Virus record (IMG/VR): IMGVR_UViG_3300025949_000019
Coordinates: 1 to 64,000 of that record
Direction: 5' to 3' (one strand)
Length of the DNA stretch: 64,000 nt
DNA from: a virus
The position numbers and the translations under genes were made by a program. The notes under the pieces are model-generated. The model searched no databases, was not told the DNA's origin, and was given only the letters and a program-made list of their open reading frames with translations. Shown here one piece after another: positions 2-23,342 of this stretch. Position 1 is the first letter of the stretch. Each line of letters starts with the position of its first letter.

Positions 2-142
2 CATTTGATCAAGCATCATTTGCCAAAAGAAAAGCACCAAGAGATATATAATAAGTTCGTAGAAGCTACAAGTAAAATGAAGAATGTCGATTCTACAAAA
101 GCAGTCGCACATTTGAAGAAAGAATTGAATACGCACGATTAG
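2..142 (+). CDS. C-terminal end of an unidentified protein
   Basis: An open frame enters from the left edge and ends at TAG (140-142), giving 46 residues that are Lys/His rich and end in KKELNTHD. The start and most of the protein lie outside the window, so no function can be given. The last codons and the stop form the acceptor stem and position 8-9 of the following tRNA, so gene and tRNA overlap by 10 bases. The frame is the only one open over this stretch. Confidence 0.6.
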   Translation, partial: HLIKHHLPKEKHQEIYNKFVEATSKMKNVDSTKAVAHLKKELNTHD

Positions 143-207
143 TTCATTGGTAGAACGCCGCTTCGACAAGGCGGATGTAAGAGGTCCGATTCCTTTATCG
201 TGCACCA
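133..207 (+). tRNA. tRNA with anticodon GAC (Val-like)
   Basis: Full cloverleaf: acceptor GCACGAT (133-139) pairs exactly with ATCGTGC (197-203), D stem GTTC/GAAC, anticodon stem CCGCT/GGCGG, T arm AGAGG/CCTTT with loop TCCGATT, discriminator A and encoded CCA. The anticodon loop TCGACAA (163-169) gives GAC, the Val reading of GUC, but position 33 is C instead of the near-universal U, so the decoding identity is uncertain. The acceptor stem overlaps the end of the preceding gene. Confidence 0.8.
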
Positions 208-235
208 GAATTTATAAAATAACTATGGAGATATT

Positions 236-499
236 ATGCAAGCACTTGGAAAGAATGTTCTTTTGAAGAAAGTAGAAGGTGAGCAGCAAATCGGTTCAAT
301 CTTGCTGCCGGGTCAACAAAATCAAAACCGTGGAGAGATTGTTTCTGTTGGAAATGATGTGCCTGCTGGTTTGTTTGCTGTCGGTGACCATGTGATCTAC
401 AACGGCGGAAAGCATGTTGCAGTTGATGGAAAGACATTCATTGCATCTGCATATGAAGATTTGCTTGTCAAAGTGAAAGACGCTGGAAACGTAAGCTAG
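236..499 (+). CDS. groES: GroES-like co-chaperonin
   Basis: An 87-residue GroES-family co-chaperonin, the functional counterpart of T4 gp31, which caps host GroEL so that the major capsid protein can fold. The sequence starts MQALGKNVLLKK, contains a mobile-loop region (about residues 15-32, GEQQIGSILLPGQQNQNRGE) and the typical GxVxSVG and VGDHVIY segments, and ends with the EDLLVKV strand. It is slightly shorter than bacterial GroES (about 97 residues). GGAG at 227-230 is a good ribosome site. Its last codons overlap the downstream tRNA-Met. The assignment is firm; specificity for the phage capsid is inferred. Confidence 0.9.
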   Translation: MQALGKNVLLKKVEGEQQIGSILLPGQQNQNRGEIVSVGNDVPAGLFAVGDHVIYNGGKHVAVDGKTFIASAYEDLLVKVKDAGNVS

Positions 500-559
500 T
501 CGGTAAACTGTTGCTCTCATACGGCAAACTCTCGGGTTCGATTCCCGGCGTTTCTACCA
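485..559 (+). tRNA. tRNA with anticodon CAT (Met or lysidine-Ile)
   Basis: Acceptor GGAAACG (485-491) pairs with CGTTTCT (549-555) with one G-U. D arm AGCT/AACT has one mismatch and its loop contains GG, anticodon stem TTGCT/GGCAA closes the loop CTCATAC, and the T arm is TCGGG/CCCGG around TTCGATT. Discriminator A and CCA are encoded. CAT may read AUG, or AUA if C34 is modified to lysidine. The first 15 bases lie inside the 3' end of groES. Confidence 0.9.
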
Positions 560-581
560 ACTCTAAGGATACACACACATC

Positions 582-815
582 ATGGCTCGAAAATGTTGGA
601 GTACGACCGCGTCTGTTGAAGTTGACATTTTCCTAGACGATCTAGACGATGAAACATTGCTAGAAGAAGTCGAAGCAAGAAATCTAGGAATTGTTTCGAT
701 GACTGCTGCTGGTTGGTGCAATGCACTTGCGGACGCATATCAACTAGGAGACACGAAAAAAATCTACGAGTTGAACAAAAAACTGATCGATGAAGTGACC
801 GGCAGGATCATTTAA
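582..815 (+). CDS. Small acidic protein of unknown function
   Basis: A 77-residue protein with an acidic first half (VDIFLDDLDDETLLEEVE) and a C-terminal helix rich in Lys and Glu. Short phage proteins of this acidic type are often seen next to GroES-type genes, but I do not recognise a family with a known role. AGGA at 565-568 lies upstream of the ATG. It is the last protein gene before the 2-kb RNA region, and a strong promoter begins 50 bases after its stop. Confidence 0.7.
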   Translation: MARKCWSTTASVEVDIFLDDLDDETLLEEVEARNLGIVSMTAAGWCNALADAYQLGDTKKIYELNKKLIDEVTGRII

Positions 816-866
816 TTTGGCAATCGATCCCAAGTCGGCAATAGAAAAATACAATAGAAAAAAAGC

Positions 867-895
867 TTGACACGGACACTAGATATCCGTATAAT
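867..895 (+). promoter_or_regulatory. Consensus sigma70 promoter for the large RNA region
   Basis: TTGACA (867-872), 17-bp spacer, TATAAT (890-895): a perfect match to the primary-sigma consensus. An A-rich stretch (841-864) upstream could act as an UP element. The spacer carries an inverted repeat, CGGA (873-876 region) and TCCG (886-889), which could be an operator. Transcription should start near 902 and run into a region with no protein gene. Confidence 0.85.
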
Positions 896-901
896 GTGTT
901 C

Positions 902-1384
902 TGTTGTTTGAGATGCGGTTTGCCTGCGAGGGAAACCAATCCTACAAGTAGGGAAAGAATCGCATCATCTTTGTTATGATATCGCTAATGGCTACTATAA
1001 TCTAACGGCTAGAGGTGACGTACCGATGAAGTAAGATACTAAACTCTATTTAAATCTTATATACATTGTGATGTTTTACGGGTCTAACCAGCCCGGGAGA
1101 TAAGTCCGATGTTCAGCTATTAGGGTTGAAATAGGATGTAGCGTGGAGCGAAAGCATTGAAGCGCACTTCGAAATTGGAATTATACTTAGTGTAACTTGA
1201 AACGTAGTACCCGTCCCTCGGATGCCACAAGTGTCTGAGGGACATTTGAAAAGCAATTTTGAAATACAGGTTGCTTTTCAAATTTGATTCTACTGTGTGA
1301 ACGTGTGGCTGAGTAAAACTATCGGCGGGTCTGAAGGCCCGAAACGTTGCCGAGCGTTCTAAGGTAGAATCATTTTATTTTTTT
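902..1384 (+). ncRNA. Structured non-coding RNA, first domain
   Basis: About 480 bases with no credible reading frame, beginning at the expected start site of the consensus promoter. Helices seen directly: GATGCG 912-917 with CGCATC 961-966, a CCTAC/GTAGG hairpin at 941-952, GTCCCTC/GAGGGAC at 1213-1243, a perfect 12-bp stem at 1245-1256/1271-1282, and GATTCTAC 1286-1293 with GTAGAATC 1364-1371. The last helix is followed by a T-rich run (1372-1384) that may terminate or punctuate transcription. A CGGC/GCCG helix (1323-1352) is nested in it. It may be a separate RNA or the 5' part of a single RNA reaching 2786. Function unknown. Confidence 0.7.
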
Positions 1385-1385
1385 C

Positions 1386-1462
1386 GCGAGGGTAGCTCAG
1401 AGAAAGAGCAGCGGCCTTAATTGAGCCGAAGGTCGGTGGTTCGATTCCATCCCCTCGCACCA
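1386..1462 (+). tRNA. Unusual tRNA with enlarged anticodon loop
   Basis: Acceptor GCGAGGG/CCCTCGC is fully paired, D stem GCTC/GAGC and T arm GGTGG/CCATC with TTCGATT are normal, and A plus CCA are encoded. Two parts are abnormal. The D loop AGAGAAA lacks the conserved GG, and the anticodon arm (1411-1429) is two bases too long: CGGC/GCCG closes a nine-base loop CTTAATTGA. The anticodon could be AAT (Ile) if C1416 and A1424 stack as a mismatch, or TAA (Leu) if U33 is 1417. It sits between the two large RNA domains. Confidence 0.7.
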
Positions 1463-1470
1463 GATTTATA

Positions 1471-1557
1471 GAAGAAAAGCAATGAAACTCTAAAACAGAG
1501 TTTCGTATTTTTCATAGCAGCCACTATGATGAATTGATTTGGAGATTGCTTTTCTTC
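1471..1557 (+). ncRNA. Three-way hairpin junction between RNA domains
   Basis: A perfect 13-bp stem joins 1471-1483 to 1545-1557 and encloses two further perfect hairpins: GAAACTCT/AGAGTTTC (1484-1504) and TCATAG/CTATGA (1512-1528). The AGAAAAGCAAT core of the outer stem also occurs in the 1245-1282 hairpin. Such a long uninterrupted duplex is a plausible RNase III processing site separating the tRNA from the second large RNA; that role is inference. Confidence 0.6.
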
Positions 1558-1582
1558 TTCGTTCTTTAACATTCGATTTACA

Positions 1583-2786
1583 AGAATTAACGGGGTGTGT
1601 GAACTCCGTCATGTGGCGAAAGCTGCATGAAAAGATACTCTGTAGCGATACAGGAAAGCGGGAAGCTTACATTACCGCGGGCTAGCTAACTATCCTCAAT
1701 TACACAAGCCTCAGTCCACGGGTGACCGTGATATCGGTGAAAAGAGCGCCGGTATGAAGTATGACGTTGAGAGTAGGGAAAGAGTCATGACTTAAACGCT
1801 TCACCTTCGGGTGAAGGAACGTTAGTCGTGAAAGAAGAAACAGGTGGTGCTGTCTCTCCTACAAAACCATTCAATCAGTACAGAGACTAAAGGGTAGCGT
1901 AATATCTTCGAGACTAGCACTCTAGAGGGATTATGCAGAATAATTGGTTTGTGGCCTATGCGAAAGCTGTGATGGACATGTACCGAGAAATTCGATTGAG
2001 TAGTCCTTGGCGGGATGAAAAATACGTGGCGAGTGGCATATTGGAGACCAAAAGTTTCTGACACCACTGGATGCGCTCGTCGCAGTAAGTTCATAGATGC
2101 TCTAAGGTAGAGCGTTTCCCTTTCATGGAAAATGCAGTTGGTTCGATCCCAACCTATATTACAAAAATGCAAAGACGCATCCTGTGTTAGTGCCAACAGA
2201 AGAAAATGGCTTAAATCTGCACGTCTTCGGACGAATGCAGGAATTCGAAACTCGCAAGGTCTAGAATTTTGATGTGGAAGCGCACGGTTGGGATTAGCGT
2301 CCCTTAACAGCCCGCAAGGTTGACGGTAGCAGAAACGTCGAGTAGCCTAACACGAAGCTTGAAATGCAACAAGCCTAAAAATGCAGCCATGAAGACATAG
2401 CTATTTGATAGCTGGACAAGTCAGAAAGGTAAGGGGTAGCACCCGAATCCGTAACCTGAACAAAAGAGTCTTCACAAAAACGTATAGTCTCAGCGTTTAT
2501 AAGATTTCATTAGTATTCGCCGTGGTGCCATACAAACATATTGACATTTGAGTTTGCAACTAGGCGATTAGCGTTGGACCGGTTATGATGAATCGTACAA
2601 GCACGGTGAATGCTAATGAAATTTTCATAGTTCGTTTTGTAGAGCATAGTCCGTTGTGGTTATCTAAAGACAAGCCTAGATGAGGCGTAATTGAAAAGTC
2701 GATGTGTACAGTCGATCTGATCAGGCAACCTTGCTATGCTGCACAAAGCGAATTGCGTAACCGCTCAGGGTAATGGCGATAATTCT
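1583..2786 (+). ncRNA. Giant structured non-coding RNA, about 1.2 kb
   Basis: No credible gene is present on either strand. Its ends pair: AGAATTA (1583-1589) with TAATTCT (2780-2786). Inside are many canonical motifs: stems capped by GAAA (1610-1629), GCGA (CTGTA/TACAG, 1640-1653), GTGA (CACGG/CCGTG, 1717-1730) and two UUCG loops (1800-1815, 2217-2240). There is also TGAAGAC 2390-2396 with GTCTTCA 2468-2474, AGCTA/TAGCT (2399-2413), and a roughly 20-bp helix linking 2504-2524 to 2602-2622. A tRNA-like domain is inserted at 2085-2162. Size, phage origin and association with tRNAs recall the GOLLD and ROOL classes of ornate large RNAs, but membership cannot be shown by eye. Confidence 0.75.
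2085..2162 (+). ncRNA. tRNA-Glu-like domain embedded in the large RNA
   Basis: D arm GCTC/GAGC with loop TAAGGTA, anticodon stem TTTCC/GGAAA with loop CTTTCAT (anticodon TTC), and T arm GTTGG/CCAAC with TTCGATC are all perfect. There is no CCA end. Instead the acceptor is ATAG/CTAT, an asymmetric internal loop, then GTAA (2085-2088) with TTAC (2159-2162). It continues into GGATGCG (2069-2075) with CGCATCC (2176-2182). So the cloverleaf is closed into the body of the larger RNA rather than having a free 3' end. Confidence 0.75.
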
Positions 2787-2789
2787 CCC

Positions 2790-2798
2790 GATAAATAG
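2790..2798 (+). promoter_or_regulatory. T4-like late promoter motif
   Basis: GATAAATAG resembles the T4 late promoter TATAAATA and repeats a motif seen before many late genes in this window. It lies at the 3' edge of the large RNA, 90 bases before the next small gene and the tRNA cluster, and would transcribe them. Confidence 0.45.
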
Positions 2799-2887
2799 AT
2801 GATTCTTGGAAGCTGTTGGAACATACAGGAACTCCACGGATAACGCGCGTATCTAGAACAAAATTATCTGTATCATCGGCGGTTACA

Positions 2888-3046
2888 ATGAATTTCAGAA
2901 AGATCGTAATTGCAATCGTAATTCTAGCAACATTGTTGTTTGTTTTGCAGTCTGCAACTGATAAATATGTGACGGATCATCTTTGCCAGCAAGGTGAACG
3001 ATATCGTGTTACATTCTATGGTTACGAATGCATAAATAAGCAATAA
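2888..3046 (+). CDS. Small membrane or exported protein, unknown
   Basis: A 52-residue protein with a positively charged N-terminus (MNFRK) followed by a hydrophobic helix of about 18 residues (IVIAIVILATLLFVL), then a short polar tail with two cysteines (HLCQQG and YECINK). It could be an inner-membrane protein or an uncleaved signal-anchor. An upstream TTG (2816) would extend the frame, but the extension looks non-coding, so the ATG at 2888 was preferred. No strong ribosome site is present, so expression is uncertain. It sits 11 bases before tRNA-Ala. No family recognised. Confidence 0.5.
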   Translation: MNFRKIVIAIVILATLLFVLQSATDKYVTDHLCQQGERYRVTFYGYECINKQ

Positions 3047-3057
3047 GTGTTTTCATT

Positions 3058-3137
3058 GGGGATCGGGTCTGCCTGGCGTGGACACCGCACTTGCAATGCG
3101 GCTAATCAGAGGGGTTCGAGTCCCCTGTTCTCCACCA
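3058..3137 (+). tRNA. tRNA-Ala (TGC)
   Basis: Acceptor GGGGATC pairs with GTTCTCC with one G-U and one U-U mismatch. D stem GTCT/GGAC, anticodon stem CCGCA/TGCGG with loop CTTGCAA (anticodon TGC), T arm AGGGG/CCCCT with TTCGAGT. A and CCA are encoded. The variable region is longer than usual (about 8 bases). Confidence 0.85.
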
Positions 3138-3233
3138 ATTTCTAACAAGTTCCAAACCATCAAGCATGGTTCGGCGCGGGGATCACCGAGAGGACCCCAC
3201 AGGAGTATGCGAAAGTTACTAAAGATTACAAAT

Positions 3234-3308
3234 GCGGGCGTGGTCTAGTGGCTTGGGCCCCATCCTTCCAAGTTGGTGACGCGAGTTCGATTCTCGCCGT
3301 CCGCTCCA
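3234..3308 (+). tRNA. tRNA-Gly (TCC)
   Basis: Acceptor GCGGGCG/CGTCCGC, anticodon stem CCATC/GTTGG with one mismatch, loop CTTCCAA (anticodon TCC), T arm GCGAG/CTCGC with TTCGATT, discriminator T and encoded CCA. The stretch before it (3138-3233) has a perfect ACCAT/ATGGT hairpin but no gene. Confidence 0.9.
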
Positions 3309-3339
3309 AAACAGTAATAAAAGGCTCAGTATAGGCCGA

Positions 3340-3386
3340 CGCAATCAGAACAAAACGTCCATGGACATACGCTTGTTCTGATTGCG
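3340..3386 (+). repeat. Perfect 14-bp inverted repeat with a nested palindrome
   Basis: CGCAATCAGAACAA (3340-3353) is the exact reverse complement of 3373-3386, and the loop contains the palindrome GTCCATGGAC. No T run follows, so it is not a typical terminator. It lies between two tRNA genes and could be an RNA-processing hairpin or a protein-binding site. Confidence 0.7.
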
Positions 3387-3460
3387 ATTATAGATTTATA
3401 GTCAGACCTCGTTATCATAAGAGGATACAAAAACTCAACTGATCTGGCTTTAGTTACAAG

Positions 3461-3534
3461 TGCGCGGTGGTGTAACAGCAACACGCTAGGCTCATAACCT
3501 TGAACTCTGGGTGCGACTCCCGGCTGCGCTTCCA
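3461..3534 (+). tRNA. tRNA-Met (CAT), possibly initiator-like
   Basis: Acceptor TGCGCGG/CTGCGCT pairs at six of seven positions, with 1-72 unpaired (T-T), the feature typical of initiator tRNA. D stem GTGT/ACAC, anticodon arm CTAGG/CCTTG with loop CTCATAA, T arm CTGGG/CCCGG with TGCGACT, and CCA encoded. The 11-24 pair is T-A, as in elongators, so initiator identity is not settled. Confidence 0.85.
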
Positions 3535-3570
3535 TCATTTCAATATACATAAAAGGGAGAATAAAACAAT

Positions 3571-3822
3571 ATGGTTCTATTAACTTCTTGGGTTGCAATT
3601 GGAATGGTGCTGATCGCACTAGATGGCGGTCAATTAGATCAAAAAGCATTTGCATCAAACAAAGTCTTTATGTCTGAAGCTGATTGTCAAAAGGAAGTTG
3701 ATGGAGCAATTCCATTGTTTGACAGAGATGTAGAGGCTGGAAAGCTTGGCGGTTATGTCCTAAAATGTGTTCAAGTAGAATTGCGTCCTCCGCTGCCTAC
3801 CAAGAAAGAAAAAAAGAAGTAA
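3571..3822 (+). CDS. Small exported or membrane protein, unknown
   Basis: An 83-residue protein. The N-terminus is hydrophobic (VLLTSWVAIGMVLIAL, residues 2-17) and could be a signal peptide or anchor. The remainder has two cysteines (ADCQKEV and VLKCVQV) that could form a disulfide in the periplasm, and the C-terminus is a Lys-rich tail. GGGAG at 3553-3557 is a good ribosome site. It lies between tRNA-Met and tRNA-Gly. Cysteine-spaced small exported phage proteins of this type have no known function. Confidence 0.7.
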   Translation: MVLLTSWVAIGMVLIALDGGQLDQKAFASNKVFMSEADCQKEVDGAIPLFDRDVEAGKLGGYVLKCVQVELRPPLPTKKEKKK

Positions 3823-3835
3823 TACGCGCACCGAT

Positions 3836-3911
3836 GCGGCGGTAGTTCAGTTGGTAGAATAGGAGCTTGCCAAGTTTCAGGTCACGGGTTCGATCCCCGT
3901 TCGCCGCTCCA
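3836..3911 (+). tRNA. tRNA-Gly (GCC)
   Basis: Acceptor GCGGCGG/TCGCCGC, D arm GTTC/GAAT with loop AGTTGGTA, anticodon arm GGAGC/GTTTC (two G-U) with loop TTGCCAA (anticodon GCC), T arm ACGGG/CCCGT with TTCGATC, discriminator T and encoded CCA. Confidence 0.9.
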
Positions 3912-7491: not shown

Positions 7492-8694
7492 ATGGCTGAT
7501 TTTAAAGTTGAAGTAATGAAGATTGACGATGTTACCAAACATCCCGATGCTGACAGTCTTTGGATTGTCAGCATTCGTGGTTATCGGTGCATCACAAACC
7601 AACAAGTCTATAGCAAGGGCGACCTTGTTGGATACATTCCAGAGGGTGCTGTTCTGCCAGAGGAACTTCTGAAGGCAATGGGATTTTGGAAAGGCAACGC
7701 TGGTACTCTCGCTGGTCGCGGAGGTGATCGAGTAAAAGCAATCAGACTTCGTGGTGTTGTATCTCAAGGGATTTTGTACCGAATCGATCAGGATTCGCAA
7801 CGGACCAAAGGACCTCATGGAAATACAAAATTCGTAAATGAGGGCGATGATGTTGCTGATTTTCTTGGCATCACCAAATACGAAGCGCCGGTCCCCGTTC
7901 ACATGGCTGGTGAGATGTGCAATATCGGACAAGACTTGACACTGAAATACGATATCGAAAACATCCAAAAGTTCCCGCATGTTTTCCTTGATGGTGAGGA
8001 AGTTAGCATCACAGAGAAACTTCACGGAACGTTCTGTGGTATTGGATTTCATACTAGCTTGAATAATCCAGAACTTATGAAAGCGAAATATTCAGCCTTT
8101 TCAAAAGGACAAGGTCAATACTTTGCCTTTTCAAAAGGACTTGGGGCCCAAGGACTTGTGTTCAAGGACAATGATGCAAACGCTCACAATATCTACCAAA
8201 ATGTTCTTGTTGACAATCTGCACAAGCTTGAAGACGGTATCCAAAAAATTAAAAAGGGCATGGGAGATGTTTTTGATCCTGCTGTCGAATGGGGATTCAT
8301 CATCTGTGGTGAGATTTTTGGAAAAGGTGTCCAAGACTTGCACTACGGGATGGAAAAACCTACGTTCCGTGTCTTCGATGCATACTTCCATGGGCGTAAT
8401 AGTGCTACTGGAAAAGAACAAAAAAGTTTTCTGCCATTCGATGGTTTGGTAGACATGTGTGAGGACCTTGGATTTGAAGTCGTGCCGGAATTGTATCGTG
8501 GGCCCTTCAGCATGAAGAAAGTCGAAGAACTGCGAGATGGAAAGACAATCCTGAATGGAACAAACGTCCGCGAGGGTGTTGTTATCAAGAGCATGGATGA
8601 AGATTCAGGTGATCTTATGATCGGGAGAAGAATTCTGAAGGCTGTTTCTCCCGACTATATACTTAGGAAAGGTAACGTTACGGAGTATAACTAA
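7492..8694 (+). CDS. RNA ligase, DRB0094 (Rnl5) type
   Basis: A 400-residue ATP-dependent RNA ligase. Residues about 1-150 form the N-terminal OB-like module of this family (HPDADSLWIVSIRGYR). The nucleotidyltransferase core follows: motif I TEKLHGT with the lysine that becomes adenylylated (about residue 179), FRVFDAYF (motif III region), EGVVIKS (motif IV) and LKAVSPDYILRK (motif V). Such ligases seal nicked or broken RNA, for instance after host tRNA cleavage. A tandem 16-base repeat within the gene duplicates AFSKG (about 200-220), near the conserved SKGLGAQGL motif. The next gene, a 2H phosphoesterase, starts two bases after the stop and is probably co-transcribed. Confidence 0.9.
   Translation: MADFKVEVMKIDDVTKHPDADSLWIVSIRGYRCITNQQVYSKGDLVGYIPEGAVLPEELLKAMGFWKGNAGTLAGRGGDRVKAIRLRGVVSQGILYRIDQDSQRTKGPHGNTKFVNEGDDVADFLGITKYEAPVPVHMAGEMCNIGQDLTLKYDIENIQKFPHVFLDGEEVSITEKLHGTFCGIGFHTSLNNPELMKAKYSAFSKGQGQYFAFSKGLGAQGLVFKDNDANAHNIYQNVLVDNLHKLEDGIQKIKKGMGDVFDPAVEWGFIICGEIFGKGVQDLHYGMEKPTFRVFDAYFHGRNSATGKEQKSFLPFDGLVDMCEDLGFEVVPELYRGPFSMKKVEELRDGKTILNGTNVREGVVIKSMDEDSGDLMIGRRILKAVSPDYILRKGNVTEYN
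8093..8150 (+). repeat. Short direct repeat inside the RNA ligase gene
   Basis: GCCTTTTCAAAAGGAC occurs twice about 34 bases apart, each copy containing the palindrome CCTTTT/AAAAGG. In protein it gives AFSKG twice. A local duplication is the simplest explanation. Confidence 0.7.
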
Positions 8695-12362: not shown

Positions 12363-13181
12363 ATGAAATTTGATCTACTTAGCGATTTACACATTGACAT
12401 TAATAGGGAATTTTTTCTTCCAGACAAGAATGAAGGATCGGATATCCTGGTCGTGGCTGGTGATCTGGCTGAATATAGATCGCTCCTAAATCTGCACTAT
12501 AAACCGTTTCATGAAATGATGAAACAATACAATGATGTGGTTTATGTTGCGGGCAATCATGAATTCTATGGAGCGAACTATCAAGCTGTTCTGAACCGAT
12601 TCAGGGATGACCTTGGTATTATGTACGAAGGTCATATTCATTTTCTGCATGGAGATACTTGGGAAGTACCGGATAGCGATGTTGCATTCGTTGGTGGTAC
12701 GTTGTTTACTGATATGAATGGTGGTGATGAACTGGCTATGAAGGTCGTCAGACAATGTATGGCTGATTTCACCTATATCACGTATAATGACAACAATCCA
12801 TTGGCGCTCGGAGATAGGTATCAAGCTAGAATTTGTCGCCCAGAAGACTATGTTCACGAACACAAACATATGCTTTTGAAGTTCGAGAATGAATGTGATC
12901 GCCTTGCGGATAAAAAGGTTGTTCTTGTCACGCATCATGCGATGAGCGAGAAAAGCGTTACCTATCGCTACTCGAATGATCATTTGATGAATGCTGGATA
13001 TAGGAGCCATCTCGAATGGTTCTTTGAGAAACACAAGAACGTTCATGTTCACTGTCATGGACATATGCATGAAATGATTCGTTACGAGATTGCCAACGCA
13101 CGAATTTATTGCAATCCGTGTGGTTATACTAAGTATGGTGAGACTAGGGTTAATTACGGACCGCTTCAAATAGAGGTTTGA
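12363..13181 (+). CDS. Metallophosphoesterase
   Basis: A 272-residue calcineurin-like phosphoesterase. All family motifs are visible: DLLSDLHID (DxH, residue 8), VVAGDLAE (GDxx), YVAGNHEFYG (GNH[DE]), VTHHAMSEKS and HCHGHMH (GHxH). These bind a two-metal centre that hydrolyses phosphomono- or diesters. In phages such enzymes can act on nucleotides, RNA ends or phosphoproteins; next to a kinase-like gene, protein dephosphorylation is one option. GAG then A-rich sequence precedes the ATG. Confidence 0.9.
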   Translation: MKFDLLSDLHIDINREFFLPDKNEGSDILVVAGDLAEYRSLLNLHYKPFHEMMKQYNDVVYVAGNHEFYGANYQAVLNRFRDDLGIMYEGHIHFLHGDTWEVPDSDVAFVGGTLFTDMNGGDELAMKVVRQCMADFTYITYNDNNPLALGDRYQARICRPEDYVHEHKHMLLKFENECDRLADKKVVLVTHHAMSEKSVTYRYSNDHLMNAGYRSHLEWFFEKHKNVHVHCHGHMHEMIRYEIANARIYCNPCGYTKYGETRVNYGPLQIEV

Positions 13182-13849: not shown

Positions 13850-14569
13850 ATGAACGTGATATTTTTAGATATTGATGGAGTCCTGAATTCGTTCAGGAAC
13901 ATTTTGGCTTTTGGTCGTTTTCCGTTTCCCGAAGTAACAGAGGATGTGCCAGGACATGGCATGGGACCGGAATCTGAATTGGATGCGCTCGCAATCGGAA
14001 TGATCAGGAAACTCTGTGATCTGACCGGGGCGAAGATCGTTCTGCATTCTATGTGGCGCAAACATATGGATGTACAGAAGTTTGGTGAACGACATAAGCT
14101 TCCTGTCATTGATGCCACCGCAAGAAACCTACCTAAGCATCTTGGAATCTTCGACTGGCTTAGACAACATAAGGAAGTTGGTATATTTGCGATCATCGAT
14201 GATGATCCGATTTTGAGTGTTCAATTCCATCCGGCTGATGACGAACAGGCTGCACTGTGGCTCCAGATGCACGATTCGTTCATTCAGACAAACATGGAGC
14301 ATGGATTTACGTTCTTGAATTTCGTGAATACGTTCCTTGTTTTTTCTGATATTGATATTGACGAGATTCGTGAAAAGAACAAGCGCCTAAAGGAACTGAG
14401 AAAATTTGATCTGCAACATGCAGCAGGAACCTTGATTGGTGGGATTGATGAAAGGACGAAGGAAGAACGAGACAGCAATACAAGGGAAATGAACATGTTG
14501 ACGGAGGAATTGAGCGATATCGGCGTCTGGTCCGTCTTGATCATGCTAGATAGTATGGAAAATCAATAA
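13850..14569 (+). CDS. HAD-domain protein of the Swiss-army-knife RNA-repair type
   Basis: A 239-residue protein. The first 140 residues form a HAD phosphatase domain: FLDIDGVLN (nucleophile Asp), IVLHSMWRK (motif II) and FAIIDDDP (motif IV), which matches the HAD domains found in multidomain Swiss Army Knife RNA-repair proteins. The last 85 residues are a charged, probably coiled-coil extension (EIREKNKRLKELRKF). A role in trimming RNA ends before ligation would fit with the RNA ligase at 7492, but it is inferred. Confidence 0.75.
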   Translation: MNVIFLDIDGVLNSFRNILAFGRFPFPEVTEDVPGHGMGPESELDALAIGMIRKLCDLTGAKIVLHSMWRKHMDVQKFGERHKLPVIDATARNLPKHLGIFDWLRQHKEVGIFAIIDDDPILSVQFHPADDEQAALWLQMHDSFIQTNMEHGFTFLNFVNTFLVFSDIDIDEIREKNKRLKELRKFDLQHAAGTLIGGIDERTKEERDSNTREMNMLTEELSDIGVWSVLIMLDSMENQ

Positions 14570-20201: not shown

Positions 20202-20230
20202 TATAAACACATTTGCCAGTATTTTAGCAG

Positions 20231-20239
20231 CATAAATAG
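20231..20239 (+). promoter_or_regulatory. Late-promoter motif joined to a -10 box before the tmRNA
   Basis: CATAAATAG (T4-late-like) runs directly into TATAAT (20240-20245), which could serve as a sigma70 -10 element without a good -35. Either would start the tmRNA precursor near 20248-20252. Confidence 0.5.
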
Positions 20240-20251
20240 TATAATGGTGTA

Positions 20252-20550
20252 GCTGTAAAGAATGGTTGTAAACTTGCATGAAAGAACGCTCGGAACACGC
20301 GGGTTCGACTCCCGCCATCTCCACCAAAGAATTTTCGCATTAGCGGCAGCCAATAGAAGAAGGCCGGGGAATATAAGCTGAGAATTCTTTAGTGGGGATG
20401 TAACGGATATCGACTCTGAGTAAGTATGTCATATAAGCAACCCGTGAATCGCTCACGTTAAACAGAGAAAAAACAAAATTTAATCGCAAATGATGAAAAT
20501 TTTGATCTAGCTCTTGCTGCGTAATTAGCAGTAAGGTAAGCCGGGGTTTT
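20252..20550 (+). ncRNA. ssrA: Circularly permuted (two-piece) tmRNA
   Basis: The 3' (acceptor) piece comes first: a T arm GCGGG/CCCGC around TTCGACT (20299-20315), CATCTCC (20316-20322), A and CCA (20324-20326), closely like the 3' end of bacterial tmRNA. The 5' piece follows at 20394 with GGGGATG, which pairs with the upstream CATCTCC to complete the acceptor stem. A 67-base spacer separates them, and its AAGAATT (20327-20333) pairs with 20383-20389. Downstream are the resume codon GCA (20486), a tag frame ending in TAA, and the helix CTTGCTGC/GCAGTAAG around the stop. The P2 helix CTGAG/CTCGG also forms between the pieces. tmRNA frees stalled ribosomes and tags the protein for degradation. 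Confidence 0.9.
20486..20524 (+). other. tmRNA proteolysis-tag reading frame
   Basis: GCA resume codon followed by AAT GAT GAA and onwards, giving the tag ANDENFDLALAA then TAA. With the alanine carried by the tmRNA the full tag would be AANDENFDLALAA. The hydrophobic LAA end is the signal read by ClpXP-type proteases in proteobacteria. Confidence 0.9.
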
Positions 20551-20592
20551 GGGAGATGAACCTAGCAACAGAATCATCTCCCATTTTCATTT
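20551..20592 (+). terminator. Terminator of the tmRNA precursor
   Basis: GGGAGATGA (20551-20559) and TCATCTCCC (20574-20582) form a perfect 9-bp stem, followed by ATTTTCATTT. Confidence 0.85.
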
Positions 20593-20614
20593 ATACGGAG
20601 AGAAAGGCTATTCA

Positions 20615-21292
20615 ATGCAAAAAACGATGATTTGTTTAATCCTAGACCGCAGCGGTTCAATGGCAGGTCTACAGCGTGATGTGATTGGTGGTGTGAATAC
20701 ATTTATCGCAGAACAAAAGAAACTTCCAGACCCAGCAATTCTAACTGCGGTCCGTTTCGATTCAAATGGTTTTGGTTATGGTAATCTCAATACAGTAAAT
20801 ATTGAGCGTTTCATTTCTATGAAAAATCTTCAAGAAGTAAATTCCCTGACTGAAAGTGATTTCGTGCCTCGTGGCGGTACTCCATTGTTGGATGCAATTG
20901 GAGAAACCATCCTGAAGCTTGATCATGATTGGCAGGAATATCATCCCGATAAATGCATCGTCGTGATCTATACTGATGGTCAAGAAAACTCGTCAGTCAA
21001 GTTCACAAGGCCGCAGATCAAACAATTGATCGAAGCACGTCAGGGAACCGGAAAGTGGGCATTCCTATTCCTAGGTGCAAACATCGATGCAGTTGGTGAA
21101 GCCACTTCGATGGGAATCTGGGCGCAGAATGCAGCTCAGTACACAAATGATGGTATTGGTCTTCGAGCAGCATATTCAACTACTTCAGCAACAGTCTCAG
21201 CAATGAGGTCAACTGGCTCAACAATGGCTGATTGGGGTGGAGAAATCAAAGCTGCTATTGAAAAAACAGAGGAAAAGGCAGACAGCAAGTAA
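20615..21292 (+). CDS. von Willebrand factor A domain protein
   Basis: A 225-residue vWA protein. The MIDAS metal site is visible: DRSGSM (residues 10-15), a conserved Thr in RGGTPLLDA (about 88) and VIYTDGQEN (about 122). It binds partner proteins through a metal ion. Phage vWA proteins of this size are usually stand-alone and of unknown target, sometimes linked to MoxR-type AAA ATPases. AAAGG and GGAG lie upstream of the ATG. The in-frame upstream extension falls inside the tmRNA terminator and was rejected. Confidence 0.85.
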   Translation: MQKTMICLILDRSGSMAGLQRDVIGGVNTFIAEQKKLPDPAILTAVRFDSNGFGYGNLNTVNIERFISMKNLQEVNSLTESDFVPRGGTPLLDAIGETILKLDHDWQEYHPDKCIVVIYTDGQENSSVKFTRPQIKQLIEARQGTGKWAFLFLGANIDAVGEATSMGIWAQNAAQYTNDGIGLRAAYSTTSATVSAMRSTGSTMADWGGEIKAAIEKTEEKADSK

Positions 21293-22295: not shown

Positions 22296-23342
22296 ATGCA
22301 AATAATCAATGATCCGAAGCTAGACTTCAAGGATGTTCTGATCATGCCGAAGGTTTCGACACTTGGTTCTAGAAGTGATGTAAATATCAATAGAGAGTTT
22401 CAATACATCGATTTAGCTGGAAACAAAAGACATTTCACCTGTGTTCCAATCATTGCATCCAACATGGATGGGGTTGGAACATTCTCAATGGCAAAATCTA
22501 TATCTGCACATGGTTGTCTAACTGCAATCTGTAAACATGAACCACTAGAAAAGTGGAATTCACTTCCAAATTATACACTCCCGATTCTATCAATGGGAAG
22601 AACTGATGGTCGTGAACTACTGAAAATTAGAGATTGGATGGACAATAATTGGTGTTGGGGTCTTCCAAAAGTTTGCATTGACGTTGCAAATGGATATAGC
22701 GAAGATTTCATAGAATTTGTTTCGATGGCACGAGAAATACTTCCAATTCACACATTCATAATTGCAGGTAATGTTGTGACACCAAGCCAAACAGAAAGAT
22801 TAATCCTGGCAGGTGCAAATGCAGTCAAGGTTGGCATCGGCTCTGGGTCTGTCTGCACTACAAGAAAAGTAACTGGTGTTGGTTATCCACAATTATCCGC
22901 AATCATGGAATGTGCAGATGCAGCACACGGAATGAATGGTTTTGTTGTTTCTGATGGTGGCTGTCAAGTTCCCGGCGATGTTTGCAAAGCATTTGGGGCT
23001 GGTGCAGACTTCGTTATGTTGGGAGGAATGTTAGCGGGGCATGATGAATCGGAAATCCACGAAGATGTTATTAAATTTCATGGCTCATCATCAAAGGCGG
23101 CTCAAACTAGAGATGGAAAAGAACTAGCAGAATACAGGTCCTCGGAAGGAAAGGAAGTTGAAATTAAGTATCGTGGACCAGTAGAACACACAATAAAGCA
23201 CATTCTCGGCGGTCTAAGATCATGCTGTACTTATTGTGGTGCTAGGAAATTAAAAGAACTGAGCAAAAGAACCACGTTTGTTCGCGTCTATAATGGTGCA
23301 CAATATAACACTGTCTTTGGTGACAGCAACGAGGTAACCTAA
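22296..23342 (+). CDS. guaC: GMP reductase
   Basis: A 348-residue IMPDH/GMPR TIM-barrel enzyme. GIGSGSVCTTRKVTG carries the catalytic Cys and is closer to GMP reductase than IMP dehydrogenase (no CBS domains, 348 residues, YRSSEGKEV and GGLRSCCTYCGA near the end). It converts GMP to IMP with NADPH, shifting guanine into the purine pool. In a phage it may rebalance nucleotides or supply precursors; it is rare in T4-like genomes. GGAG precedes the ATG. Confidence 0.9.
   Translation: MQIINDPKLDFKDVLIMPKVSTLGSRSDVNINREFQYIDLAGNKRHFTCVPIIASNMDGVGTFSMAKSISAHGCLTAICKHEPLEKWNSLPNYTLPILSMGRTDGRELLKIRDWMDNNWCWGLPKVCIDVANGYSEDFIEFVSMAREILPIHTFIIAGNVVTPSQTERLILAGANAVKVGIGSGSVCTTRKVTGVGYPQLSAIMECADAAHGMNGFVVSDGGCQVPGDVCKAFGAGADFVMLGGMLAGHDESEIHEDVIKFHGSSSKAAQTRDGKELAEYRSSEGKEVEIKYRGPVEHTIKHILGGLRSCCTYCGARKLKELSKRTTFVRVYNGAQYNTVFGDSNEVT

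Follow-up and report, generated by a model that had tools for sequence, protein, structure and literature searches.

A tRNA-like domain that lacks the charging end, in the linker of a phage GOLLD RNA and of its relatives

tRNA-like domains built into larger RNAs are known from tmRNA, from the 3' ends of plant viruses and from bacterial Y RNAs, which are comparable with the locus described here only in the way they work; in tmRNA and several of the plant-virus elements aminoacylation is possible on a retained CCA end, which the present domain lacks. GOLLD RNA was reportedly described by Weinberg et al. in 2009, and we know of no function for it, although the structure of its cage has been solved. 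By cryo-EM, GOLLD env-38 forms a hollow 14-mer cage with the linker inside, the linker of the solved molecule being a disordered stretch of 42 nt without a tRNA (Kretsch et al. 2025, PMC12286853). Earlier work also recorded tRNAs inside the GOLLD linker (PMC12286853; PMC6582537). The mycobacterial GOLLD of M. aubagnense resembles ours in having a degenerate tRNA inside the GOLLD, but it belongs to another GOLLD lineage, with other tRNA types, and its tRNA was named a pseudo-tRNA gene, with no analysis of such domains as a class (PMC6582537). Like the linker domains, the tRNAs with which phages counter host tRNA nucleases (PMC10264068, PMC12409363) are phage-encoded tRNA bodies, perhaps involved in an arms race with defences that cleave tRNA; the latter, however, are complete and functional and replace the cleaved tRNAs, whereas GOLLD linker domains would be at most decoys. 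What appears to be new is that the acceptor end is systematically lost, that the domain moves as a cassette and, perhaps, that a pseudoknot brackets tRNA-bearing linkers; Weinberg 2009 and Morgado 2020 are the works that could predate this.

The window, by which we mean the whole 64,000-nt stretch of DNA analysed, belongs to a myovirus of T4-like type, as its genes for baseplate, tail-sheath stabiliser, gp32 and terminase show. The initial annotation had reported a tRNA-Glu-like domain embedded in a large RNA, and that RNA was identified as GOLLD: the whole of Rfam model RF02032 (positions 1-416) was covered by 2026-2496 at 174.3 bits (E = 2.9e-47, gathering score 150; cmscan). Besides matching the whole 3'-domain model above gathering, the locus shares with GOLLD RNAs their location in a phage or prophage near tRNA genes, seen here in the T4-like genes and in the seven clustered tRNA genes (133-3911) among which the GOLLD lies. 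The features of the locus, all on the plus strand, are as follows.

867-895, plus strand: putative consensus sigma-70 promoter, TTGACA-17-TATAAT (12/12 matches)
1580-2025 (limits inferred), plus strand: probable GOLLD 5' domain (spacing of motif AAAGGGTAGCG, fold)
2026-2496, plus strand: GOLLD RNA, conserved 3' domain, its linker containing the tRNA-like domain (RF02032, cmscan)
2026-2033, plus strand: first stem of the 3' domain, 5' strand GTGGCGAG, paired with 2076-2083 (GOLLD model alignment)
2069-2075, plus strand: pseudoknot 5' strand GGATGCG, paired with 2176-2182 (7/7)
2076-2083, plus strand: first stem of the 3' domain, 3' strand CTCGTCGC, located between pseudoknot strand and tRNA-like domain (GOLLD model alignment)
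2090-2164, plus strand: tRNA-like domain with anticodon UUC, without CCA (Rfam tRNA match, arm fit)
2176-2182, plus strand: pseudoknot 3' strand CGCATCC, immediately 3' of the conserved flank AAAAATGCAAAGA

RF02032 models the conserved 3' domain of GOLLD. The stretch upstream of the match (about 1580-2025) is probably this 5' domain, structured and non-coding: motif AAAGGGTAGCG occurs at 1889, 251 nt 5' of the T arm, a spacing of 242-252 nt in the nine relatives having the motif, and 1580-2490 folded better than 20 of 20 shuffles (z = -3.05). An ORF on the minus strand (1822-2196) was rejected as a gene, being unsupported. The promoter at 867-895, recognised from its sequence, is a possible start of a transcript running into the GOLLD. 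Directly 3' of it, between tRNA-Met and tRNA-Ile, some 475 nt (903-1378, plus strand) folded far better than shuffles (z = -4.78) without any Rfam match, and are a candidate for an unnamed structured RNA. The neighbouring tRNA-Ile (1386-1462, plus strand) was called with anticodon AAT, which is odd for a bacterial or phage tRNA, and has an enlarged anticodon loop in the Rfam alignment.

A tRNA-like fold with a TTC anticodon was recovered where the initial annotation had placed it, with a match to the Rfam tRNA model (RF00005) at 2093-2157 of 38.2 bits vs 29 (E = 1.8e-4 over the 64-kb window) that is truncated to model positions 4-67 of 71. The fold had been described as a perfect cloverleaf, which holds for three complete arms with their loop features: the D arm at 2099-2113 (GCTC/GAGC, 2099-2102/2110-2113, with GG in the loop), the anticodon arm at 2115-2131 (TTTCC/GGAAA, 2115-2119/2127-2131, loop CTTTCAT, anticodon at 2122-2124, U33 and A37) and the T arm at 2137-2153 (GTTGG/CCAAC, 2137-2141/2149-2153, loop TTCGATC). 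It does not hold for the acceptor, where the arm fit gave four canonical pairs of seven (ATAG 2093-2096/CTAT 2154-2157) with positions 1-3 unpaired in place of a 7-bp stem, and ARAGORN called no tRNA at 2090-2164. CCA is not encoded after the domain, as had been observed, while most other tRNA genes of the window do end in it. The 114 nt from 2069 to 2182 had a fold z of -2.65, with 3 of 200 shuffles folding equally well.

How the domain is held in the larger RNA differs from what had been proposed, namely an acceptor stem running through GTAA/TTAC into GGATGCG/CGCATCC. The 7-bp match exists, but 2076-2083 intervenes and pairs back to 2026-2033, so that in the GOLLD model alignment the helix crosses the first GOLLD stem and is a pseudoknot, not a continuation of the acceptor. 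Furthermore, GTAA (2085-2088)/TTAC is split from ATAG/CTAT by a 4x1 loop, and outer 4-bp helices of this kind occurred in relatives at chance level (10% vs 11% between mismatched partners), which together with the 2076-2083/2026-2033 pairing excludes the extended helix. In 18 distinct GOLLD RNAs picked by Rfam or by the 3' tail, with and without a linker tRNA, the full 7/7 helix was found at this place in 16, as against 18% for mismatched partners; pairing of 100% in a larger set was a selection artefact, and the 18-RNA test alone was used. The pseudoknot thus belongs to GOLLD RNAs in general: it brackets the linker and shows covariation across the family, with GGGGAAG/CTTCCCC as the bracketing helix in the cluster M mycobacteriophages Estes, Rey and MrMagoo and in prophi86-1. 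Its presence in GOLLD RNAs without a linker tRNA argues against a lock made by the acceptor helix; it is the GOLLD core, and not the acceptor stem of the domain, that holds the tRNA-like domain at both ends, between the two pseudoknot strands.

The initial annotation had suggested a search for the same fusion in related phages. Searches with the conserved tail, with the T loop plus linker flank and with the first GOLLD stem identified at least some 100 different GOLLD RNAs whose linker carries a tRNA-like domain at this position; all 50 carrier loci tested had a GOLLD by Rfam, 47 of them above the gathering score. Cultured carriers include Phaeobacter phage MD18 and phage DSS3_MAL1, in both of which the domain is annotated as tRNA-Arg, Sinorhizobium phage Phosso, and mycobacteriophages Estes, Rey and MrMagoo together with prophage prophi86-1. 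The linker is nearly constant in length in carriers (95-108 nt); in many other GOLLD RNAs it is short and the domain is missing. Pattern ACGNCGAGTAG was discarded as a GOLLD finder, matching mostly non-GOLLD contigs; the tail pattern had matches in bacterial genomes that were without GOLLD, a blastn comparison of the GOLLD in the window with cultured phages gave no match, and the terminase search found one relative contig, with an identical protein. In the linker of one relative (L036, 1564-1638) the domain has a CUA anticodon and the ARAGORN label tRNA-Pyl, and the related Phosso linker has UCU in a similar arm.

For the population, the fit of the arms left the acceptor out of account, and acceptor pairing was measured afterwards. 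Acceptor positions 1-3 of 91 linker domains were paired in 45, 48 and 46% of cases (49, 46 and 46% in shuffles) and positions 4-7 in 91-97%, with CCA in 3/91, whereas in 397 free tRNAs from the same contigs positions 1-3 were paired in 89-98% and CCA was present in 92%. This first large set was found by a T-loop pattern, which makes its arm conservation partly a selection criterion; a second set was therefore considered that had been picked by the GOLLD-core pattern alone, the tRNA not being used. Here pairing stood at 41, 41 and 56% for positions 1-3, compared with 92-97% for positions 4-7, the anticodon arm was fully paired (5/5) in 46 linkers, and 0 of 200 shuffled linkers reached the cloverleaf score. 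The claim that the domain is no normal mature tRNA but is built into a large RNA is well supported by these worn acceptors and the near absence of CCA in about 100 related GOLLD RNAs. Three linkers (L225, L277, L307) contain apparently complete tRNAs with a full acceptor and CCA, and the nearest GOLLD relatives of the window (L178, L193, L238, in a weak tree placement) have six of seven acceptor pairs without CCA; both observations count against the mimic reading set out below. Given the complete linker tRNAs, the natural reading is that the linker domain derives from a tRNA gene that was captured and afterwards lost its maturation end.

The reading we favour, with a probability of a little under 60%, is that the domain is a tethered tRNA mimic, never matured and probably held inside the cage; that it baits or decoys some host factor able to bind tRNA is a further and less certain step. 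The strongest competitor, which we consider rather unlikely, is a captured pseudo-tRNA: the linker would tolerate insertions, and tRNA genes of the array would recombine into it and decay without function. This accords with the location of GOLLD in tRNA arrays, with the occurrence of complete tRNAs, worn ones and remnants in linkers, and with the pseudo-tRNA without detected expression reported in mycobacterial GOLLD (PMC6582537). Six linkers (L353, L356, L360, L361, L362, L370) also fit it, in that they keep the anticodon arm (loop CTGTTAA or ATGTTAA) and have a shortened or altered T arm, perhaps a further step of wear. Wear is, however, mainly confined to the outer acceptor, and the other arms still pair although their stem bases differ widely among linker domains. 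Even the shrunken tRNA remnants in the GOLLD linkers of Ruegeria phages V10 (L117) and DSS3P8 (L118), ATGTCTGCAAGGACGT vs ATGCCTGCAAGGGCGT, preserve their stem by a compensatory change.

Decay of inserted array genes also fits poorly with the finding that most sampled linker domains have another linker domain, and not a free tRNA, as their nearest relative. Over 322 nt downstream of the domain two GOLLD RNAs (L206 and L210) show no difference, and over about 180 nt upstream a single one, yet their tRNA-like domains are only 60% alike, the divergence starting and stopping at the conserved linker flanks; another pair (L175 and L242) is 96% identical downstream and 98% upstream, vs 61% in the domain. 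Conversely, cassettes free of differences were found on cores 74-82% identical. Core identities of about 46% for some cassette pairs (L180/L187) were set aside as possible alignment artefacts. By these alignments, the domains of the best-sampled clade are a pool that is swapped between GOLLD RNAs as a cassette.

The tethered mimic also has to be weighed against a purely architectural part of the cage, a rigid spacer or a source of loop-loop contacts between chains whose likeness to tRNA is one of shape only. The near-constant linker length of carriers and the bracketing pseudoknot are in line with such a part, as would be the UUAA loop of the main clade, which may act as a palindrome. We judge it improbable, considering that many GOLLD RNAs do with short linkers lacking the domain, that the solved cage assembles with a disordered 42-nt linker (PMC12286853), and that loops outside the main clade, including CUUUCAU in the window, are not palindromic.

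In the core-selected sample, which is mostly of the main clade, 93% of the loops had U36-A37-A38, Asn-GUU and Lys-UUU being the commonest loops of that clade. On the GOLLD-core tree, NUU loops changed base 34 no fewer than 24 times, switching between the Asn and Lys types, which speaks against a decoding role. NUU anticodons made up 65% of linker domains vs 11% of free tRNAs, a share that fell to about 0.3 once averaged over clusters, and U36-A37 stood at 38% in singleton lineages, with U36 at 36% in free tRNAs. The anticodon is not conserved between lineages, and the U36-A37 bias belongs mainly to one clade and is absent in the window (UUC), both of which weigh against the tethered-mimic reading; a general U-rich anticodon code was rejected, as one clade drives the NUU excess. 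That the window encodes a working tRNA-Glu, which RNase P and 3' processing would release from the GOLLD transcript and to which a host enzyme would add CCA, is very improbable. In its favour, the anticodon loop is tRNA-like, no other tRNA-Glu was found in the 97.5-kb record, and a few GOLLD linkers have a full acceptor with CCA. Against it, three of seven pairs are absent from the acceptor/T-arm stack by which RNase P and RNase Z recognise their substrates, the free tRNAs of related contigs encode CCA in 92% of cases and linkers almost never do, and the Asn/Lys switches fit decoding poorly.

If the domain is indeed a tethered mimic, it would stay in the GOLLD RNA, neither cut out nor charged, and each cage could hold up to 14 such mimics in its lumen, because GOLLD forms a hollow 14-mer with the linker turned inward (PMC12286853); the lumenal placement is by analogy, the solved linker being short and without a tRNA. 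The elbow and anticodon arm might then bait or decoy a tRNA-binding host factor, for instance a tRNA-cleaving defence enzyme, and variation among host factors would select for cassette exchange. We infer this to be the most likely role, tentatively and at rather below even odds, and it is the weakest step of the proposal. AriB of the PARIS system cuts Lys-UUU, Thr-UGU and Asn-GUU tRNAs (PMC12409363), and the overlap of these targets with the main-clade loops may be taken as a lead, not as a rule. The RNA ligase (7492-8694) and the HAD_SAK_2 protein (13850-14569) encoded in the window would fit, circumstantially, a phage facing RNA or tRNA damage, while a closed cage may exclude host enzymes, which weighs against a decoy. 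An extended version, which we hold to be rather unlikely, would give the cage a dedicated cargo slot, the linker, whose exchangeable acceptor-less mimic, in up to 14 lumenal copies, traps or exhausts a specific host tRNA-targeting enzyme, the turnover of cassettes reflecting an arms race with host defences.

A tRNA fold that is conserved in shape, swapped and without a charging end offers a lead on a possible purpose of the cage, the holding of tRNA mimics, and a direct test is feasible in the cultured phages with this arrangement (MD18, DSS3_MAL1, Phosso and the cluster M mycobacteriophages). Annotated phage tRNAs that lie inside the giant RNA, such as the tRNA-Arg of MD18 and DSS3_MAL1, may not be working tRNAs.

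Elsewhere in the window, the RNA ligase and HAD_SAK_2 RNA-repair-type protein, both on the plus strand, possibly form an RNA-repair set with a metallophosphoesterase (12363-13181, plus strand). The phage also encodes a tmRNA of the permuted alphaproteobacterial type (20208-20615, plus strand; RF01849 and RF04321) with the tag ANDENFDLALAA, as well as a GroES-like co-chaperonin (Cpn10; 236-499, plus strand) and an IMP dehydrogenase-like protein (22296-23342, plus strand).
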